A stretch of 64,000 nucleotides of DNA, taken from Arcobacter sp. CECT 8986. Lineage in GTDB: Bacteria > Campylobacterota > Campylobacteria > Campylobacterales > Arcobacteraceae. A program made the position numbers and the translations under genes. Where the stretch lies: assembly GCF_004116725.1 (NCBI RefSeq), contig NZ_PDKG01000001.1:62001-126000 (forward strand), given 5' to 3'. Shown one piece after another: positions 16,460-24,578 of this stretch. The first letter of the stretch is position 1, and the number at the start of each line of letters is the position of its first letter. The notes beneath the pieces are model-generated. The model saw only the letters and a program-made list of their open reading frames with translations, did no database searches and was not told the origin of the DNA.

Positions 16460-16487
16460 AGATAAAAGAGTATTTTCTTTTATCTTT
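16458..16487. terminator. Bidirectional terminator between cbi operon and metal operon
   Basis: A 12-bp perfect inverted repeat (arms 16458-16469 and 16476-16487, six-base loop) with A-run on one side and T-run on the other lies between convergent genes ending at 16459 and 16486, so it can stop transcription from both sides. Confidence 0.75.
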
Positions 16488-17196
16488 ATATATGACAACT
16501 CAAAATTGACATCGTTGGGTCATATAAATATCTATATCCTCTATAAGCTACATAAATACCAAAAGCTATAACAACTAATGAAGCTATTTTTATCATCACA
16601 TTTCTAAGAGAAGTTTGTTTAAAAATAGAGATAAAAAAACCTAAAGAAAACATCGCAGGAAGTGTACTTAATCCAAACAGAAGCATAACAAAACCACCCC
16701 AAAGTGCACTACCTGTACTTGCAGCAGTTATTGCAAAAACATATACAAAACCACAAGGTAAAAGACCATTTAACATCCCTAAAAGATAAAAACTTGTCAA
16801 AGAGTTTGAGCTTATTAAAGATCTAAATGTTTTTTGATAAATTGGTGATTTTGATACTGAGTGTTCTAAATTTGTTAAGAATTTTATTTTACCACTTAAA
16901 GATAGTCCAACTAAAACCATAAGTGTTCCAGTAACTAAAAGTAAAATACCACTTGTAGTTTTATCAAAAGTAACAACACCACCTACATATCCAAAAATAA
17001 ACCCTAAGATTACATAAGTTGTAATTCTTCCAAAAGAGTATAAAACATGAGACAATGCTTGTAGCTGTTTACTCCATCCACTTTTTACTTTTGTACTTGA
17101 ATATGCTACAACAATTCCTCCACACATTCCAATGCAATGCCCAAAAGAGCCTAAAAAAGCTATTGTAATAATAGATACTATACTTACTGTTTCCAT
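16486..17196 (-). CDS. Sulfite exporter TauE/SafE-like (DsbD_2-type) membrane protein
   Basis: Six-helix membrane protein of the group often found beside copper or cytochrome-oxidase maturation genes. Two Cys-bearing helices mark it: GSFGHCIGMCGGIVVAYSS near the N-terminus and GLLPCGFVYVFAIT in the second half, a DsbD-like arrangement suited to thiol or metal transfer across the membrane. It is the last gene of a leftward operon and starts two bases after the NosL-like gene. The annotation as a sulfite exporter is nominal; copper or thiol handling fits the context better. Confidence 0.87.
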   Translation of the reverse strand: METVSIVSIITIAFLGSFGHCIGMCGGIVVAYSSTKVKSGWSKQLQALSHVLYSFGRITTYVILGFIFGYVGGVVTFDKTTSGILLLVTGTLMVLVGLSLSGKIKFLTNLEHSVSKSPIYQKTFRSLISSNSLTSFYLLGMLNGLLPCGFVYVFAITAASTGSALWGGFVMLLFGLSTLPAMFSLGFFISIFKQTSLRNVMIKIASLVVIAFGIYVAYRGYRYLYDPTMSILSCHI

Positions 17197-17197
17197 A

Positions 17198-17704
17198 CTA
17201 TTTATTACCTAAAAGTTTTTGTTTTACATATGGATTAGTTAGGTTTTCACCTCTAATCATATGTAATATCACTTGATTGAAATCTATAAATCCATCTTGT
17301 TTATTTTCATATGCACCAAAACCATAATGCATAGGAGTATTTGCAACTCTTGTATACCAAGCTTTTCTACCATCTATGTATTTTTTTGTATCTGTTGCAT
17401 ATACCCAAATAACAGCTTCATCTTTGAACTTTATGTGTTCATACCATTTTGACATACATCCCATATCATCAAAAAACCAAGTTCTTCCATCAGGTGCTAC
17501 AACTTGAACAGAATTAATTTTAGACTCTATTGTCATTCCACATTGACTATCTTGAAAATGGTGTAACTCTATATCAACTGGTTTTTTATCATAATTTCCA
17601 GTATGAATAACAACCATCTTTTTTTGCTCACTCATTGAGATAAATACTACAACTACAATTGCAATAATAATAAATATACTCAAAAGGGGTATTAATTTTT
17701 TCAT
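17198..17704 (-). CDS. NosL-like membrane-anchored protein
   Basis: A 168-residue protein with an N-terminal hydrophobic anchor (about residues 4-23) and a NosL-like domain facing the periplasm. The signature residues are Cys55-Gly-Met57 in SQCGMTIESK and the following TWFFDDMGCMSKWYEH with Cys83-Met84, which match the Cu(I)-binding pattern of the NosL family. NosL is a copper chaperone for nitrous-oxide reductase, but no nosZ is in view, so the client is unknown. Start overlaps the upstream gene by one base (TAATG). Confidence 0.8.
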   Translation of the reverse strand: MKKLIPLLSIFIIIAIVVVVFISMSEQKKMVVIHTGNYDKKPVDIELHHFQDSQCGMTIESKINSVQVVAPDGRTWFFDDMGCMSKWYEHIKFKDEAVIWVYATDTKKYIDGRKAWYTRVANTPMHYGFGAYENKQDGFIDFNQVILHMIRGENLTNPYVKQKLLGNK

Positions 17705-18669
17705 TATAAGAAAACTCCATTTTTTAAATAATATATAACTACATATAAACTACAAATTGATACAAAAATAGTATTAAATATTATTGAGTATTTATATGTA
17801 TAATCTAACTCTTTTTTTATAAGAGATTTTAGCACAAAGGAGCTTATTGCATAAAAAACCCCTAAGAAAAGACTCGTCCACAATATATAACCTATGTAAT
17901 AATACTCTTTTTGAAGCATACAAAAAGGGCATTTGTGTGTAGGCAATTGATAAATATATGTTCCAAAAAACTCTACAACACTTAAGTATGAAATATACAA
18001 AAATAGTATATTTACAATAAATGATAGAAAAGATTGTTTTGAAATATTTGCCATCAAAGTTAATAAATAAAATAGATAAAAAAGAATAATTAATTTATTA
18101 GTATCTAAACCAAAAGGTAAAGTACTACTTCCTTGTGCACCAAAAATAACTGTACAACATAGTACTAATTCATCTAAAGATATATTAGTAAAATATAATA
18201 TATCTAAAATATACTCTACTAAAGTTATAAAAAATATAAATATAAAAAAGTATAATTTTGTTTTTATATATGGATAATCTTTTTGTTTTAAATCTTCACT
18301 ATTTATTATTATCCAAATAGAGTTAAAAAAGACAATAAATATTTTAAGTGCTAAAAGCTTAATTCCATAATCATTTGCATTTATAACTCCAGCAGCACAC
18401 ATTGCTCCAGGAACTATATTTGATAAGTTATCAATAACATATGCAAAATAAGGAATTAAAGCTATTTTTACAACCAAAGTAAAAGAGATAATCAACATAA
18501 CTAAATATGATTTTTTCTCTAATTTATACTGTTTTGGTTTTGTAGAAGAAAAATCCCAATTTTTAATTATATCAATTGCAAAAAATAGTGCAAAAAACTC
18601 TAATAATATAATTATAGTTTCACTTGATAGATATATCAAAACTTCATTTGAAAGTAAAACTTCATTCAT
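17704..18669 (-). CDS. Polytopic membrane protein with CPFC motif, function unknown
   Basis: A 321-residue protein with about eight hydrophobic segments. I do not recognise a named family. Conspicuous cysteines are Cys91 in PGAMCAAGVINAND, Cys171-Cys172 in ELVLCCTVIFGAQG, and Cys247/Cys250 in PTHKCPFCMLQKEYY; the last is preceded by His246. These look like potential thiol-redox or soft-metal sites within or next to the membrane. It lies between an ABC ATPase and a NosL-like gene with one-base overlaps on both sides, so it is part of the same machine. Confidence 0.75.
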   Translation of the reverse strand: MNEVLLSNEVLIYLSSETIIILLEFFALFFAIDIIKNWDFSSTKPKQYKLEKKSYLVMLIISFTLVVKIALIPYFAYVIDNLSNIVPGAMCAAGVINANDYGIKLLALKIFIVFFNSIWIIINSEDLKQKDYPYIKTKLYFFIFIFFITLVEYILDILYFTNISLDELVLCCTVIFGAQGSSTLPFGLDTNKLIILFYLFYLLTLMANISKQSFLSFIVNILFLYISYLSVVEFFGTYIYQLPTHKCPFCMLQKEYYYIGYILWTSLFLGVFYAISSFVLKSLIKKELDYTYKYSIIFNTIFVSICSLYVVIYYLKNGVFL

Positions 18670-19337
18670 TACAGAATTTTTCCATTTTCCATATATATAG
18701 TTCTTGTTATTAAACTACTTTGTTCAAAAATATTATCATGAGTTGCTATAACCACTGTTTTTGATAACTTCTTAAATATTTGCAATGTTTTTAAAAACTT
18801 AAGGCTATTGTCTTTATCTAAGTTTGCAGTTGGTTCATCAAAAAGTAAAATATCTGCGTCACACACTAAGGCTCTTGCTATTGCAACTCTTTGTTTTTCA
18901 CCACCACTTAAATTTGATACTAATTCATCTTTTTTATGCTTTATATTAGCAATATCTAAAACATTTAAAACTTTTTCTTCTAACTGTTTTTTATTTAGAT
19001 TTTGAGGTATTAAAGGAACTATTATATTTTGATAAACATTCAAAGAACTAATCAAATTAAAATCTTGAAACACATAACCTATTTTTTTATTTCTAAAGTT
19101 AGAAGCATGTAAATCAGGCAACTTTGCGATATGCTCTTTATCAACTATAACATCACCACTTGTAGGCTTTTGTAAACTTGAGATTATAGATAGAAGTGTA
19201 GATTTTCCACTTCCACTTACACCTTTTAATAAAACTATCTCCTCTTTTTTAATTGAGAAGTTAATATTATTTAGAGCAATAAACTCATTTTTTTTATGTT
19301 GGTTATATATTTTATAAAGGTTTTTTATTTCTATCAT
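18669..19337 (-). CDS. ABC transporter ATP-binding protein (LolD/MacB type)
   Basis: Complete ABC ATPase of 222 residues: Walker A GVSGSGKSTLL, Q-loop in GYVFQDFNL, signature LSGGEKQRVAIARAL, Walker B ILLFDEPTANLD and H-loop VIATHDN. The short length and IALNNINFSIKK start fit the LolD/MacB/FtsE class that pairs with FtsX-type permeases, which work mechanically on the periplasmic side rather than as pores. The permease gene lies just upstream and overlaps by four bases. Confidence 0.93.
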   Translation of the reverse strand: MIEIKNLYKIYNQHKKNEFIALNNINFSIKKEEIVLLKGVSGSGKSTLLSIISSLQKPTSGDVIVDKEHIAKLPDLHASNFRNKKIGYVFQDFNLISSLNVYQNIIVPLIPQNLNKKQLEEKVLNVLDIANIKHKKDELVSNLSGGEKQRVAIARALVCDADILLFDEPTANLDKDNSLKFLKTLQIFKKLSKTVVIATHDNIFEQSSLITRTIYMENGKIL

Positions 19338-20512
19338 TTTATACTCTTTATTACATCAACAGTTGCTATTTTCCAAACAGGAACTAAAATTACACATAAA
19401 AATGGAACCACATAAAAAATAAATAGAGTTACAACAGAACCCAAAGATACATAAGGAGTCAATTCATATGCAATATCTAAGTTTGAATATCCTAAGAATA
19501 TATTTATTAAAAATGGTGCTTTTACTAAAAATACATAAATAAATGCAAGAATAATTCCAAAACTAAAAGAGAAAAAGGCAACTAAAAAGTTTTCTAATAC
19601 TTTTAGTTTCAAAATATCTTTTATACTCCATCCAACTGCTTTTAATATCGCTATTTCTTTTTTATCACTTGAATTTATCATGGAATATCTTTGGTAAAGT
19701 ATCAATAAAAAAGTAAGAATAACTACAATATACAAAATCAAAAACAACCCACCTTTATAATTAAATAGGTTTAAAAAGTGTGATTTCATATCATTTTTAG
19801 ATAAAACTCTTAAGTTATCATCTAATAAAATTAACTGCACTTTAATATTTTGTTTTTCTAACTCATTTGGCACATTTAAAGCAATATCTGTTGCTTTAAA
19901 TTCTCCAATACCCAAAATAATCTTTGCTAACTCTTTTGGCATAATTATCATATCATTTGATAAAAGAGAAGTTTTTGCATCTAAATTATCATAAATTTCT
20001 ACTTCTATTGATTCACCCAATGGTGTTGTAAAAAAATAGCTATTATCATATTTATATTTATCAAAAAGTTTTTTTACTCCATTTCCTATAATCATATACT
20101 CTTTTTGTAAAAACTTCTTCATATCAAGATTTTTGATTAAAACAGATAAATTTTTATTATTTTGTTCTTCAAAAAAATCAACACCAACAATAGTAAAACT
20201 CTGTTTTAAAGCTTTGAAATAGTATTTTCCATAAACTCTTGTTGTTACTTTATTTACTCCAAGAATAGATTCTATTTTATCTACTAAATCACTATTTATA
20301 TCTACAACTTGCCCTGCTTTCATTTTTTGAACTATAAAATCAGGTTGAGAATCAATAGAGTTTAAAATATCTTTTGAAATAGAATTAGAGATAAAATTTA
20401 CACTTGCAAGGATAAACACTAATATAGTTGAAATTATAAAAATTGAGATGTGTTTACTTTTATGTGTAAAAAGAAGTAAAAATAAAAAGTTATAAAAAGA
20501 TTTATTGAACAT
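19334..20512 (-). CDS. FtsX-type ABC transporter permease
   Basis: MacB/LolC-type permease of 392 residues: one N-terminal membrane helix (FIISTILVFILASVNFI), a large periplasmic domain of about 200 residues, then three helices including the FtsX core with KKEIAILKAVGWSIKDILKLK. I place the start at the ATG at 20512, which has AGGGA seven to eight bases upstream; the open frame continues upstream to 20611 but that part overlaps the preceding gene. It pairs with the ATPase downstream. Confidence 0.88.
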   Translation of the reverse strand: MFNKSFYNFLFLLLFTHKSKHISIFIISTILVFILASVNFISNSISKDILNSIDSQPDFIVQKMKAGQVVDINSDLVDKIESILGVNKVTTRVYGKYYFKALKQSFTIVGVDFFEEQNNKNLSVLIKNLDMKKFLQKEYMIIGNGVKKLFDKYKYDNSYFFTTPLGESIEVEIYDNLDAKTSLLSNDMIIMPKELAKIILGIGEFKATDIALNVPNELEKQNIKVQLILLDDNLRVLSKNDMKSHFLNLFNYKGGLFLILYIVVILTFLLILYQRYSMINSSDKKEIAILKAVGWSIKDILKLKVLENFLVAFFSFSFGIILAFIYVFLVKAPFLINIFLGYSNLDIAYELTPYVSLGSVVTLFIFYVVPFLCVILVPVWKIATVDVIKSIK

Positions 20513-20747
20513 ATATAAAATCCCTATGATTTGTATCTTTATTAAATAAATAAGCTCTATTTTGTATTTGAGTACTATCTTCTTGATAACTATTTGAAAA
20601 ATATATATCAAACTTGTTAGTCAATGCTGTTATGGCTTTTAGTTGATTTTGTTTTGATTGATTATCATAAGTATAAGAATAATAAAAAATAAAAGAAAAA
20701 CCTAAGAAAATTGTAAAAAATATCATCATAAAAACTTTATTAATCAT
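20502..20747 (-). CDS. Small membrane-anchored protein, first gene of the metal operon
   Basis: An 81-residue protein with an N-terminal hydrophobic helix (about residues 5-23) and a short polar tail, probably in the periplasm. No family is recognised. It overlaps the permease start by 11 bases and so is translationally coupled to it. It lies downstream of a regulated-looking promoter and an intrinsic-terminator-like hairpin, making it the first gene of a six-gene leftward operon. Confidence 0.65.
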   Translation of the reverse strand: MINKVFMMIFFTIFLGFSFIFYYSYTYDNQSKQNQLKAITALTNKFDIYFSNSYQEDSTQIQNRAYLFNKDTNHRDFIYVQ

Positions 20748-20772: not shown

Positions 20773-20802
20773 AAAAAAAAGCTTCACTTATAAAAGCGAA
20801 GC
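20773..20802 (-). terminator. Terminator-like hairpin in the leader of the metal operon
   Basis: Read leftward, a seven-base-pair stem (20796-20802 with 20781-20787, one G-U pair), eight-base loop and a run of eight T form a textbook intrinsic terminator. It lies after the candidate promoter at 20850-20881 and 26 bases before the first start codon at 20747, so it could act as an attenuator or end a short leader RNA. Confidence 0.55.
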
Positions 20803-20849
20803 CATCTTGATATATAAAAAATTAGTAGTGTTTGTTTATTCTTGTAATG

Positions 20850-20881
20850 ATTATACATCTGAAGTGTTAAGTAAGTGTTAA
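20850..20881 (-). promoter_or_regulatory. Tandem TTAACACT box with TATAAT -10 (metal operon promoter)
   Basis: Leftward, two identical octamers TTAACACT (20881-20874 and 20870-20863) are spaced by exactly 11 bp, then seven bases later comes a perfect TATAAT (20855-20850). Direct repeats at 11-bp spacing in place of a -35 box are typical of OmpR/PhoB-type activators. The same double octamer occurs ahead of exbB. An OmpR-type regulator gene lies about 3 kb away. Confidence 0.65.
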
Positions 20882-20951
20882 TTTTGTTTTTTAAACTTCT
20901 TTTTTTGTGAAATTATTATAATATAGGCAAAAATAATAACAAAGAGTAAAA

Positions 20952-21575
20952 ATGAGATTAATTATGTTTGATATGGATGGAACTTTAGTAAATAGTTCTT
21001 TTGCCATTACAAATACAATAAACTATGTAAGAGAAAATATTGGATTAAATAAATTAGAATCAAAATTTATACTAGAAAACCTTAATAACCCTACAATTAA
21101 TTCTGCTGAATTTTTTTATGGAACTCCTGATTTTACTGATGAACAAGTGGTATTATTTGAAGAGTATTATAATAAACACTGTATTAGCGACTTAGAGTTA
21201 TATGATGGAATCGAAAAACTAATTGATGATTTAAAAAGTGATTTTACACTTGCAGTTGCAACAAACTCAAACTCTACATATGCAAGAAAGATGCTAGAAC
21301 ATGTAGGAATTGCAAACTATTTTCCTACAATACTTGGATATGATAGTGTAATAAATCCAAAACCTCATCCTGAAATGGTTGAAAAAATTCTAAGTATGCA
21401 TAATGTACTAAATACCAATGCACAAATGATTGGTGACAGCCATAAAGATATACTTGCAGCTAAAAAAGCTGGTGTTGATTCTGTTTTAGTAAACTGGGGT
21501 TTTTCTGACCATAAAGAAGATGCAATTGAAACAATAGATGAATTAAGAGTAAAAATAACAGAAAAATTTAAATAA
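20952..21575 (+). CDS. HAD-superfamily phosphatase (phosphoglycolate phosphatase-like)
   Basis: Haloacid-dehalogenase hydrolase with all four motifs: FDMDGTLVNSS (nucleophile and acid/base Asp), AVATNSNST, Lys in NPKPHPEMV and IGDSHKDILAAKKAG. The helical cap between motifs I and II makes it a subfamily-I enzyme such as Gph or a beta-phosphoglucomutase-like phosphatase. The substrate is not evident. It is alone on its strand and its end overlaps the convergent tonB end by eight bases. AAAGAG lies seven bases before the ATG. Confidence 0.88.
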   Translation: MRLIMFDMDGTLVNSSFAITNTINYVRENIGLNKLESKFILENLNNPTINSAEFFYGTPDFTDEQVVLFEEYYNKHCISDLELYDGIEKLIDDLKSDFTLAVATNSNSTYARKMLEHVGIANYFPTILGYDSVINPKPHPEMVEKILSMHNVLNTNAQMIGDSHKDILAAKKAGVDSVLVNWGFSDHKEDAIETIDELRVKITEKFK

Positions 21576-22230
21576 GTCTATATGTTATTGGTATAGTAAT
21601 TACTAATGACTTTGGGACAGTAGGGAAATCTTTTGATGCATTTAAAATAGCATCAATTGTAGATTTTCTTAATAGTTTATGTCCTTTTAATACCTCAACA
21701 TCCTTAATACTTCCATTTTTTAATATTTTAAATCTTACTTTAACTTCACCTTGAATATTAAAGCTCTTTGCTCTTTTTGAATAGACTATATTTTTTTGAA
21801 TTAGTGTTCTTATTTTTCTTAGGTTTTTATTTATATATACTTTCTCTTGATTTATTTTTGGTTTTGATAGCTTTTGTTCTATTTTTTTATTTGTAGCTAT
21901 TTTCTTTACTTCTTCTTTTTGCTCTTTTTTTATTTGTTGTTTTTTTATACTCTGTTTTTTAACTACTGTTTTTTTGGGCTTTATAGTCTTTATAGTTTTA
22001 GTTTTTACTACTTTTCTTTCTTGAGTCTTTTTTACTATTTGCTTAGGCTTTTTAATATCTTTTTTTATACTTTTTTCTTCTACAATTGATACATAATTTA
22101 AAGATACTTTTTTTGTATTCTGTTTTTTATTTAAATCTATTTTTTTATTTGTATATGCATAATATAAACTTCCTATCACAAAAGCATATATTATTAGTGT
22201 TATAAAAAAAGAGTTAAGATATCTTTTCAT
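21568..22230 (-). CDS. tonB: TonB energy transducer
   Basis: TonB of 220 residues: N-terminal membrane anchor (FFITLIIYAFVIGSLYYAY), a long Lys-rich linker (about residues 30-135, with many KK, KPK and KQ repeats rather than the Pro-rich linker of enterobacteria), and the C-terminal TonB domain with GEVKVRFKILKNGSIKDVEV, TIDAILNASKDFP and the ending VTIPITYRLI. It couples the inner-membrane proton gradient to outer-membrane receptors. It overlaps exbD by four bases. Confidence 0.92.
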   Translation of the reverse strand: MKRYLNSFFITLIIYAFVIGSLYYAYTNKKIDLNKKQNTKKVSLNYVSIVEEKSIKKDIKKPKQIVKKTQERKVVKTKTIKTIKPKKTVVKKQSIKKQQIKKEQKEEVKKIATNKKIEQKLSKPKINQEKVYINKNLRKIRTLIQKNIVYSKRAKSFNIQGEVKVRFKILKNGSIKDVEVLKGHKLLRKSTIDAILNASKDFPTVPKSLVITIPITYRLI

Positions 22231-22604
22231 TTTTTTGTGATTATTGATATATTTTGTATATTGTTACTTTTTAATATATCTAAAACTTGAATAAATGAGT
22301 CAAACTTTGCATTCTTATCGCTTTTTATATTAATAGCTCTATTTTTATTAATAGTTAGAATAAAAGCTTCAATATCTTTTAGTGAACTTATTTTATTATC
22401 TAAATAGATAGTTCCATCACTTTTTATAGTAATTACACTACTTTTATTATCATTTATATTTGTAGAGTTTTTAGCATATGGTAAAGATATAGGAATTATT
22501 CCTTTTGATATAAAAGTTGAAGTCATCAACACAATAGCTAAAAGTACAAGTAATACATCAATAAAAGGAATTACATTAATAGAATCAAACTTCTTTAGTT
22601 TCAT
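22227..22604 (-). CDS. exbD: ExbD, TonB-complex proton channel subunit
   Basis: A 125-residue protein with the family start MKLKKFDSINVIPFIDVLLV in which Asp (PFIDVLLVLLAI) is the essential membrane carboxylate, followed by a short periplasmic domain. I place the start at ATG 22604, with GGAAAG six bases upstream; it then overlaps exbB by 20 bases. It lies between exbB and tonB in the standard order. Confidence 0.92.
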   Translation of the reverse strand: MKLKKFDSINVIPFIDVLLVLLAIVLMTSTFISKGIIPISLPYAKNSTNINDNKSSVITIKSDGTIYLDNKISSLKDIEAFILTINKNRAINIKSDKNAKFDSFIQVLDILKSNNIQNISIITKK

Positions 22605-23010
22605 ATTTGCTTTCCAGTACTTCTGCATATCTACTTAATATATTATAAAAAATCATTGAGATTATGGCAACAACCAATCCAATTGCTGTTGCTTTAAGTG
22701 CGAGGGCTAAAGATGCCATTATTTTAGTTGCTTGCATATCTACACTACTCATAGTCATAAAAGTAAGCATTATTGCAATAACAGTTCCAAGCAATCCAAT
22801 ATAAGGAGAATTTGAAGCTATTGTTCCTATTATAGTTAGATGTTTTGTAAGTGCTATATCTAAGGCTTTTTTATTTTTATAACTATTTACATCTATACTT
22901 TTATAAAATATAACTCTTTCTATAAAAAACCATACAGATAAAAAACTCATAAAAACTAATAAAACAACTACACCATAATCTACTAGATTTTTTAATAACT
23001 CTATACTCAT
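22585..23010 (-). CDS. exbB: ExbB, short Campylobacterota-type
   Basis: ExbB/MotA-TolQ family proton channel with three membrane helices. The conserved core is IASNSPYIGLLGTVIAIMLTF and ALALKATAIGLVVAIISMIFYN. At about 141 residues it is much shorter than the 230-244 residues of enterobacterial ExbB, lacking the long N-terminal part, as known for the Helicobacter type. The start is uncertain between ATG 23010 and TTG 23016. A candidate regulator box lies 43-61 bases upstream. Confidence 0.9.
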   Translation of the reverse strand: MSIELLKNLVDYGVVVLLVFMSFLSVWFFIERVIFYKSIDVNSYKNKKALDIALTKHLTIIGTIASNSPYIGLLGTVIAIMLTFMTMSSVDMQATKIMASLALALKATAIGLVVAIISMIFYNILSRYAEVLESKYETKEV

Positions 23011-23052
23011 TCTCAATCTTTATATTAAATTAATAATATTTTATTTTATGAG

Positions 23053-23071
23053 TGTTAAATTAGTGTTAATT
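23053..23071 (-). promoter_or_regulatory. Tandem TTAACACT box ahead of exbB
   Basis: Leftward, TTAACACT occurs twice (23071-23064 and 23060-23053) with 11-bp spacing, identical in sequence and period to the box at 20863-20881. The first copy overlaps the stop codon of the histidine kinase gene. A TATTAT hexamer lies 14 bases further on, giving TTAACA-N16-TATTAT. It implies that exbB-exbD-tonB can be switched separately from the upstream two-component genes. Confidence 0.6.
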
Positions 23072-23929
23072 AATAAGTTGTTTTTTTAGGTTTAACTCTA
23101 CTCTTGTAGCATCTTTTAAAGGAATAATATTAATAGCTATTTTATTTTTATCACAAAACTCTTTTACTATACTAAGTCCTAAACCAAAACCATTTTGTGA
23201 GCTATCTTCTTGAAAGAATCTATCAAATAGATAAAAAAGATGTTTTGTATCTATACTCTTTCCACTATTTTGGATATAAAGAATTGAACTATTTTCTATT
23301 CCTATGTTTATATATCCATTCTTTTTATTATATTTAATTGCATTTGACAATAAGTTATCAATAACCTTTGCAAAGCCATTTTTATCACTTTTTATAACTA
23401 TGTTTGTATTTAACTCTTTATTTATAGAGATATTTTGACTTTGTCTTATATCTTCTACTTTATCTAAGCTATTATCTACAATTTCATTTAAATGAAATGA
23501 ATCATTTTCTATATGGTCTATCTCTTTTTTTATACTATATTCCATATCTTCATATAATTTTAGTAAATCATCAGAAGCTTTTTTTATGCGCTCTAATCTT
23601 TTCAAAGCCTTTTCATCTGTAATTTTTCTTTGTAGCATTTGAGTGTTTAGCATAATTGTAGATACAGGAATATTTAACTCATGTATTGTCTCTTTTACTG
23701 TTTTACTTAAATTCTCATCACTTTTAAATAAAGGGTTTAAAATACTCTTACTTAAAATTAAAAATAAAAAAAGTGCAAATACAACTAAAGGCAAAATAAT
23801 AATAAGAAAGTTGTCTTTATTTAATCCAAAATAAGTTATTAATACATAATTTAAAAATAGTACAAGTATTGTAACAAATACAAAGATTATTGATAGAGAT
23901 ATTAAAAAATCTTTTACTTTAGAGTTCAA
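23066..23929 (-). CDS. Sensor histidine kinase
   Basis: A 287-residue kinase with two N-terminal membrane helices (about residues 8-33 and 41-60) and almost no periplasmic loop, so it may sense within the membrane or through a partner. The phospho-acceptor is His83 in ETIHELNIPVST. The ATPase domain shows the N-box VIDNLLSNAIKYNKK, a degenerate G1 (YIQNSGKSID) and G2 NGFGLGLSIVKEF. No HAMP domain. It overlaps the response regulator gene by 11 bases. Confidence 0.9.
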   Translation of the reverse strand: MNSKVKDFLISLSIIFVFVTILVLFLNYVLITYFGLNKDNFLIIILPLVVFALFLFLILSKSILNPLFKSDENLSKTVKETIHELNIPVSTIMLNTQMLQRKITDEKALKRLERIKKASDDLLKLYEDMEYSIKKEIDHIENDSFHLNEIVDNSLDKVEDIRQSQNISINKELNTNIVIKSDKNGFAKVIDNLLSNAIKYNKKNGYINIGIENSSILYIQNSGKSIDTKHLFYLFDRFFQEDSSQNGFGLGLSIVKEFCDKNKIAINIIPLKDATRVELNLKKQLIN

Positions 23930-24578
23930 GTTTATACCCTATTCCTTTTATATTTGTTATCTTATCTTTTCCTATTATCTTTTTTAGATTATTTATATAT
24001 ACTCTAATAGAACCTTCACTATACTCTTCACTTGTACTCCATAACTTAGAGATAATCATCTCTTTTGTTACAATTGAATCTTTATTTTCTAAAAATAGTT
24101 CTAATAAAAATGCAATCTTAATAGGAGTATTTAAATCAGTTCCATTTTTATAAACTCTTTTTGTAGAAGGATTAAACTTAATATCTTCAGATATACTAAT
24201 CTCTTCTAGTAACTTTCCACATCTTTTTAGAATAGATTTTATTCTTAAATTTAATTCATCTAAATCAACAGGCTTTTTTATATAATCATCACAACCACAA
24301 GAAAATCCATCTTCTAATGTTTGCTTATCTTTATATGATGTAAGATATATTGCTGGTGTTTCATCTCCACTTTGTCTTAATTGAGATAGTAGTTCTAATC
24401 CATTTATTTTAGGTACATTAATATCTAATAAATAAAGGTCATAATTATTTTCATAATTTAAATCTAAAGCCTTTTGACCATCTTGAGCAATATCTATAAA
24501 ATAACCCTCTTCTTCTAAAAAATCCTCTAATGTCTGAGCAAAAAGCTCATCATCTTCTAAAACTAAAATTCTATTCAT
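23919..24578 (-). CDS. OmpR-type response regulator
   Basis: A 219-residue regulator. The receiver domain has Asp9-Asp10, phospho-acceptor Asp52 in YLLDINVPKINGLELL, Thr80 and Lys102 in DDYIKKPVDLDEL. The C-terminal winged helix includes TKEMIISKLWSTSEEYSEGSIRVYINNLKK read in parts and ends NIKGIGYKLEL, typical of OmpR/PhoB DNA-binding domains that bind 11-bp-spaced direct repeats. It is upstream of the kinase and of exbB-exbD-tonB on the same strand and is the natural candidate to bind the TTAACACT boxes. Confidence 0.92.
   Translation of the reverse strand: MNRILVLEDDELFAQTLEDFLEEEGYFIDIAQDGQKALDLNYENNYDLYLLDINVPKINGLELLSQLRQSGDETPAIYLTSYKDKQTLEDGFSCGCDDYIKKPVDLDELNLRIKSILKRCGKLLEEISISEDIKFNPSTKRVYKNGTDLNTPIKIAFLLELFLENKDSIVTKEMIISKLWSTSEEYSEGSIRVYINNLKKIIGKDKITNIKGIGYKLEL

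Follow-up and report, generated by a model that had tools for sequence, protein, structure and literature searches.

The 64,000-nucleotide stretch of Arcobacter sp. CECT 8986 DNA analysed here (the window; contig NZ_PDKG01000001.1, positions 62,001 to 126,000) encodes an OmpR-type two-component system beside the genes exbB, exbD and tonB and an operon of the ATP-binding cassette (ABC) type, with a tandem sequence box ahead of both gene groups. We propose that these boxes belong to a copper-acquisition regulon and that the leader of the ABC operon gives a small RNA (sRNA) predicted to pair with the mRNA of ccoN, which encodes the copper-containing subunit of the cbb3 oxidase. A sequence-only reading of the locus had described a double octamer in the same orientation at the two promoters, a perfect TATAAT (20855-20850) seven bases past the first pair, and an OmpR-type regulator with its kinase encoded alongside, all of which we find, the first pair at exactly the position given. 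It had put the second pair at 23053-23071, two bases too high, and it missed the predicted leader RNA antisense to ccoN ahead of the operon. The regulatory genes, the boxes and the genes behind Box 2 are as follows.

23919-24578, minus strand: OmpR/PhoB-type response regulator (PF00072 and PF00486), candidate box-binding protein
23066-23929, minus strand: histidine kinase with two membrane helices and a loop of about 10 residues without metal ligands
23051-23069, minus strand: Box 2, TTAACACT-AAT-TTAACACT, overlapping the kinase stop codon
23038-23043, minus strand: -10-like TAAAAT, 9 nt past the second TTAACA of Box 2
22585-23010, minus strand: exbB (PF01618)
22227-22628, minus strand: exbD (PF02472)
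21568-22230, minus strand: tonB (PF03544)
20863-20881, minus strand: Box 1, TTAACACT-TAC-TTAACACT, with the core TTAACA-N5-TTAACA, read from the sequence and conserved in relatives
20850-20855, minus strand: -10 element TATAAT, 9 nt past the second TTAACA of Box 1, a spacing kept in relatives

Scanning the 2,648,654-base genome, which is of the Malaciobacter type, for TTAACACT-N3-TTAACACT returned only the two window sites as exact matches, 2.2 kb apart and above chance, the next best sites having two mismatches. The single octamer occurs six times in the window against 5.9 expected; octamer counting, being at chance level there, was dropped as a stand-alone measure and the 17-bp element was taken instead. 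Comparison of orthologous promoters showed that the box is conserved in relatives, and that what is conserved at these promoters and at both window promoters is the core TTAACA-N5-TTAACA followed, after exactly nine bases, by a -10 hexamer. This fixed distance puts the second repeat at the -35 position, which is the layout of class-II PhoB/OmpR activators. Known activator sites of that class share with the boxes the 11-bp direct repeats over the -35 position, and the boxes differ from them in the core TTAACA and the fixed 9-nt distance to the -10 element. The earlier assignment of the repeats to the OmpR/PhoB type thus gains from the activator-like placement and from the clustering of sites at the regulator described below, with the amendment that the conserved core is TTAACA and not TTAACACT. 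Of the two outcomes named as refuting that reading, a chance-level box across the genome and a lack of conservation in relatives, neither was observed. Allowing up to one mismatch, several box sites are shared, at the same genes, by most of the six genomes of the genus; those in the genome under study include one at the gene of a NosL protein and one at that of an OprC-like receptor. In a search of 104 Arcobacteraceae genomes, the 32-base composite element TTAACA-N5-TTAACA-N9-TA(N3)T gave 185 exact sites against 8 for the reversed control (both totals summed by hand), and 78 of the genomes carry at least one.

Both the receiver and the winged-helix trans_reg_C domain of the regulator lie above their Pfam cut-offs, and an ortholog is found in 86 of the 104 genomes at E <= 1e-68. 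Box presence set against regulator presence across genomes was not a clean test of the link between the two, and clustering was used in its place. Out of 150 listed composite sites, 126 lie in regulator-positive genomes, and 35 of these, spread over 26 of 55 genomes, are no more than 20 kb from the regulator gene as opposed to 1.9 by random placement, a difference whose significance is overstated by kinship among the genomes. Such clustering suggests that the boxes are sites of the adjacent OmpR-type regulator. That another OmpR-type regulator of the same genome binds the box, with the neighbour being incidental, we consider unlikely: the genome does hold 13 regulator matches at E <= 1e-30, and boxes occur in some genomes without an ortholog at the threshold used, but against it stand the clustering, the composite site that genome G056 has 59 bases ahead of the gene for the regulator, and the conservation of the C-terminal recognition segment in the five orthologs read in frame.

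The genes behind the boxes were surveyed at the 150 of the 185 sites that are listed (up to G084), of which 132 unique sites were scanned and 120 have an open reading frame (ORF) within 330 bases; clusters of these first genes were named by Pfam on representatives and by eye, not per member. Copper or TonB genes account for 102 of the 120, namely TonB-dependent receptors (37), PCuAC (16), NosL-type (16), ExbB (13) and SafE-type proteins (7), followed by NosL-like lipoproteins (6), the ABC operon (5), TonB (1) and the regulator (1). The Pfam search on representatives confirmed PCuAC, SCO1 and NosL. Eighteen of the 37 boxed receptors contain the C-x3-M motif of OprC (GACPNRMD-type or GGCGGRMD). 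For the receptor of the genome under study (L128:2624-4597), the best PDB match is OprC (6fok, E 2.2e-31), and its copper ligand motifs C-x3-M (GACPNRMD) and H-x-M (DHPM) align with the OprC ligands in that structure. The protein therefore resembles the TonB-dependent copper receptor OprC/NosA in its CxxxM-HxM copper site, as far as the available text on OprC goes (PMC8610252), and differs from it in control by the box and a two-component system and in a TIGR01778 score below the cut-off, for which reason we call it OprC-like. In the available parts of the respective papers, OprC is an importer of ionic copper (PMC8610252), and respiratory oxidases are served by a further copper TonB receptor, CrtA (PMC12914433). 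Taken with these roles, the boxed gene set points to a regulon for copper acquisition, and copper would be the putative signal. The sequence-only reading had envisaged a local regulon joining TonB-driven uptake to a metal-handling operon; the boxes do tie these two together, and the regulon reaches further, being genome- and family-wide.

Behind Box 1, the genes of the operon itself are as follows.

20502-20747, minus strand: ORF 1, 81 amino acids, membrane-anchored, no Pfam family
19334-20512, minus strand: FtsX-type ABC permease (PF02687)
18669-19337, minus strand: ABC ATPase (PF00005)
17704-18669, minus strand: 321-residue membrane protein, no family
17198-17704, minus strand: NosL-like lipoprotein, a weak label
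16486-17196, minus strand: SafE-like DsbD_2 membrane protein (PF13386)

The weak NosL label of 17198-17704 comes from profile comparison with the NosL proteins of the regulon (hhalign, E 1.5e-4); Pfam gave no match to PF05573, three of five orthologs reaching 13.4-15.0 bits against a cut-off of 24. In genome G003 (locus L091), exbB, exbD and tonB are absent between the HAD gene and the kinase, where two chemoreceptor-like genes and a short ORF are found instead.

Box 1 and the operon are separated by a leader of about 100 bases, which has the following features.

20773-20843, minus strand: predicted leader or small RNA of about 71 nt, its start placed about 7 nt past the -10 element; fold z-score -3.5, conserved leader
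20806-20828, minus strand: 23-nt segment CTACTAATTTTTTATATATCAAG, perfectly antisense to the 5' untranslated region of the ccoN gene of the same genome (G000:C4:258945-258967)
20773-20803, minus strand: intrinsic terminator, a 10-pair stem and a T run; one found against a shuffle mean of 0.0, z-score -6.2

The predicted leader RNA has a boxed -10 promoter and a terminator of its own, and its first 35 bases are predicted to be unpaired. In other genera, the stem of the leader hairpin differs wholly from genus to genus, its unpaired loop UCCUCCUACUACU, which is complementary to a ribosome site, is near-invariant, and the terminator comes next. An alignment of all 16 RNAs with MAFFT aligned the loop and not the unlike stems, and the covariance model R1 was therefore built from 8 of the 16. 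R1 found the RNA in further genera; among 30 loci fetched, 26 were good by eye, 3 were chance matches (L296-L298) and 1 was unclear (L286). Its use as a presence/absence test was abandoned, as it missed six loci of genus g2 (genera are given by number, Malaciobacter being g1) that a pattern search showed to carry the RNA. Rfam returned five matches up to E 5 in the window region, all under gathering scores and none over the leader, and no match at E <= 0.1 in six related RNA loci.

The leader could act in cis only, as a transcription attenuator of the NosL-like/ABC/SafE operon that leaves ccoN unaffected, and its position nearly always ahead of a nosL-like or safE gene, with the terminator 26 nt before the first ORF, would fit such a role. 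We think this improbable. In genus g3 the RNA is solitary, its strand being free of genes for 330 bases, and in G070 it is followed by a 61-residue ORF that is neither nosL nor safE, both of which point to an RNA that works on its own; the pairing segment stops before the terminator stem, so that no antiterminator is visible; and attenuation leaves both the 23-nt antisense to ccoN and the co-variation described below unexplained.

The proposed target was identified as ccoN by TIGR00780, above the cut-off. The 23-nt pairing would require the stretch TATATAAAAAAT of the ccoN leader to be transcribed, and an extended -10 element, conserved some 60 bases ahead of the start of ccoN, would place the paired segment inside the ccoN mRNA. 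The window RNA pairs beside GGAGG, not over it, and reaches UAGUAG. Its ungapped pairing score with ccoN is 50, compared with a best of 26 among 163 other gene starts of the genome. In the other five Malaciobacter species, 15 to 21 bases are perfectly antisense to the ccoN leader, against 23 in the window, and in each of the six species none of 200 dinucleotide shuffles (our own shuffle, with a mononucleotide fallback) reaches the observed score. Matches in the other genera span 8 to 12 bases, with between 0 and 51 of 200 shuffles reaching the score in single genomes, and there the ccoN site TAGTAGGAGG lies opposite the hairpin loop UCCUCCUACUA. The pattern TAGTAGGAGG-N2-10-ATG was found in 67 of the 104 genomes, ccoN being its sole match in the genome under study, and in 54 of these 67 (hand count; 104 genomes searched) the match reads TAGTAGGAGGAGATTGATG at the ccoN start; ccoN itself was found in 99 of the 104.

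These scores bear on the narrower view of the sequence-only reading, in which there is just a local TonB and ABC regulon; on this view the ccoN match would be a by-product of A+T-rich sequence. That the exact octamer pair occurs just twice in the genome agrees with it, but boxes stand family-wide at copper genes distant from the regulator, and the best non-self pairing score in the 64 kb is 33.5 (3552 windows) against 50 for ccoN; we hold this view to be very improbable. Complementarity is symmetrical, and the direction of action might be the reverse, with the ccoN mRNA serving as a sponge to clear the leader RNA and oxidase demand thereby controlling the RNA's other targets. Other mRNAs with TAGTAGGAGG in g2, such as that of a SoxA/TsdA-type cytochrome, would be in keeping with a sponge, but a search of the genome under study allowing up to three mismatches found no match to the 23-mer besides the RNA and ccoN, and we give the reverse direction very little weight.

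The ccoN leaders vary from genus to genus, and RNA and target co-vary. With Malaciobacter ccoN, the RNAs of that genus reach a score of 43.8, against no more than 23.9 with ccoN of the other five genera; the g17 RNA, with the loop CUCCUAAU, reaches 28.5 with its own ccoN (ATTAGGAGG) and no more than 19.0 with the others. For g3 the corresponding values are 22.3 and at most 20.8, and near-identical ccoN sites in g2, g10 and g19 give no discrimination. Where no RNA was detected, the ccoN site in many genomes reads TTTAGGAGG or TTTGTAGGAGG in place of TTAGTAGGAGG; because some of these genomes do carry the RNA, the site variant set against RNA presence is not a clean test. It is somewhat probable that the target contact co-evolves between genera, from an anti-Shine-Dalgarno hairpin loop to a 23-nt linear antisense in Malaciobacter, and that the RNA is a copper-sparing sRNA of the Arcobacteraceae, situated in the leader of a copper-chaperone operon, induced by a two-component system of copper starvation and shutting off translation of the cbb3 oxidase.

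The explanation that we consider likely for the locus as a whole is that the adjacent two-component system governs a copper-starvation regulon including a copper-sparing RNA that acts on ccoN. Under copper shortage, the two-component system would become active and the regulator would bind the boxes, switching on OprC-like TonB receptors, ExbBD-TonB, the chaperones PCuAC and NosL and the NosL-like/ABC/SafE operon. The promoter of this operon would first yield the short terminated RNA as a separate molecule, part of the transcription passing the terminator into the operon, and the RNA would pair with the 5' untranslated region of ccoN, ribosome site included. The resulting decrease in ccoN translation would keep scarce copper from new cbb3 oxidase. 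Within this scheme, the boxes and their geometry, the gene sets, the clustering at the regulator, the terminator, the complementarity and the co-variation are shown by the sequence itself, and repression of ccoN is what pairing over a ribosome site would be expected to cause.

Several observations weigh against this explanation. Of the 120 first genes, 18 do not fit, 5 of them being secG, and the OprC-like receptor of the genome under study reaches 196.7 bits against the TIGR01778 cut-off of 472.45. The kinase has no metal-binding domain and, in 11 orthologs, no conserved metal ligand in its loop. Boxes are present where the regulator ortholog was missed at the E threshold (G049, G078, G100 and others), some of these genomes belonging to genera in which the E-value of the regulator lies just above the threshold. 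A promoter-like match upstream of Box 1, TTGTTA-16-TATAAT (window 20915-20942, minus strand), could drive the leader RNA without the box, and in g2 the RNA promoter has degenerate boxes only, at unchanged spacing. The window RNA lacks the UCCUCC loop, and R1 finds no match for it in its own genome. Support from shuffles is weak in G064, G038, G037, G063 and G060, where 51, 20, 16, 12 and 11 of 200, respectively, reach the score. Finally, TAGTAGGAGG alone is weak evidence for a dedicated contact, since a strong ribosome site complements any anti-Shine-Dalgarno loop.

Metal-sparing RNAs under the control of a metal regulator are a known kind for iron; we know of none for copper under a copper regulator, and copper saving in bacteria is largely unknown compared with iron saving through RyhB. 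The proposed RNA would resemble the RyhB type, such as E. coli RyhB, in linking a regulator of metal starvation to a short RNA on the ribosome sites of metal-enzyme mRNAs. It differs in concerning copper rather than iron, in OmpR-type activation instead of Fur derepression, and in being leader-encoded and of unrelated sequence without an Rfam match. The CruR / bp2923 upstream ORF likewise links post-transcriptional control to copper acquisition and a TonB receptor, but does so, in the available text, through a copper-sensing upstream peptide and Rho termination in cis, whereas the RNA proposed here is non-coding and its predicted action is in trans; the same 2022 paper states that small-RNA post-transcriptional control for copper is yet to be characterised (PMC9426467). 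CrdRS of Helicobacter, also an OmpR-type system of the Campylobacterota tied to copper, is known from the accessible part of its description for inducing a copper-resistance gene (PMC9449129), instead of the acquisition genes found here. Open-access literature on copper sRNAs, copper sparing, OprC/NosL/cbb3, Arcobacter sRNA and Campylobacter OmpR, in the text accessible for each, describes no such RNA or regulon, and no open-access paper was found that joins ccoN, sRNA and copper. Intergenic regions of Arcobacter sp. L were analysed and several left unnamed in the portion available (PMC6429828), and the leader RNA may be among them. Under the proposed scheme, a two-component system found in most of the Arcobacteraceae would gain a physiological role; regulator, 17-base DNA element, gene set and one-target RNA are proposed jointly, in culturable marine bacteria, and the steps are thus directly testable.

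Further features were observed at copper-enzyme genes. The ccoN leader of most genera (L379 and others) contains a conserved AAGTGAC-N6-GTGACTT, either a hairpin or a protein site. We rejected nosZ as a general second target, most nosZ starts having AAGGAG without the GTA extension; the exceptions are a single TAGTAGGAGG-nosZ match in G030 and GTAGGAGG in G017 and G033. Two g2 loci (L332, L333) have a reversed box, TGTTAA-N5-TGTTAA, upstream of nosZ and GTAGGAGG at the ribosome site, and the regulator might repress this second copper enzyme in g2. In 10 g2 genomes (L301 and nine more), TAGTAGGAGG is the ribosome site before a SoxA/TsdA-type cytochrome c of 332 residues, a possible second target.

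The leaders of boxed TonB receptors at L214, L217, L232 (from 1688), L265 and L267 are conserved and structured, with AAAGTTTGGCGAC or a close form of it; they have no Rfam match at gathering scores and are possible riboswitches or attenuators. Genus g8 (L213, L216, L218, L223, L225) has a composite box with no gene after it; the sequence that follows is similar between the loci, TCCC.TACCTAAAATAAATAAAGCA in most, and is possibly another box-driven RNA. At L194:374-1714, a boxed protein with weak similarity to cytochrome bd subunit I and a cytochrome c end is a candidate copper-free oxidase.

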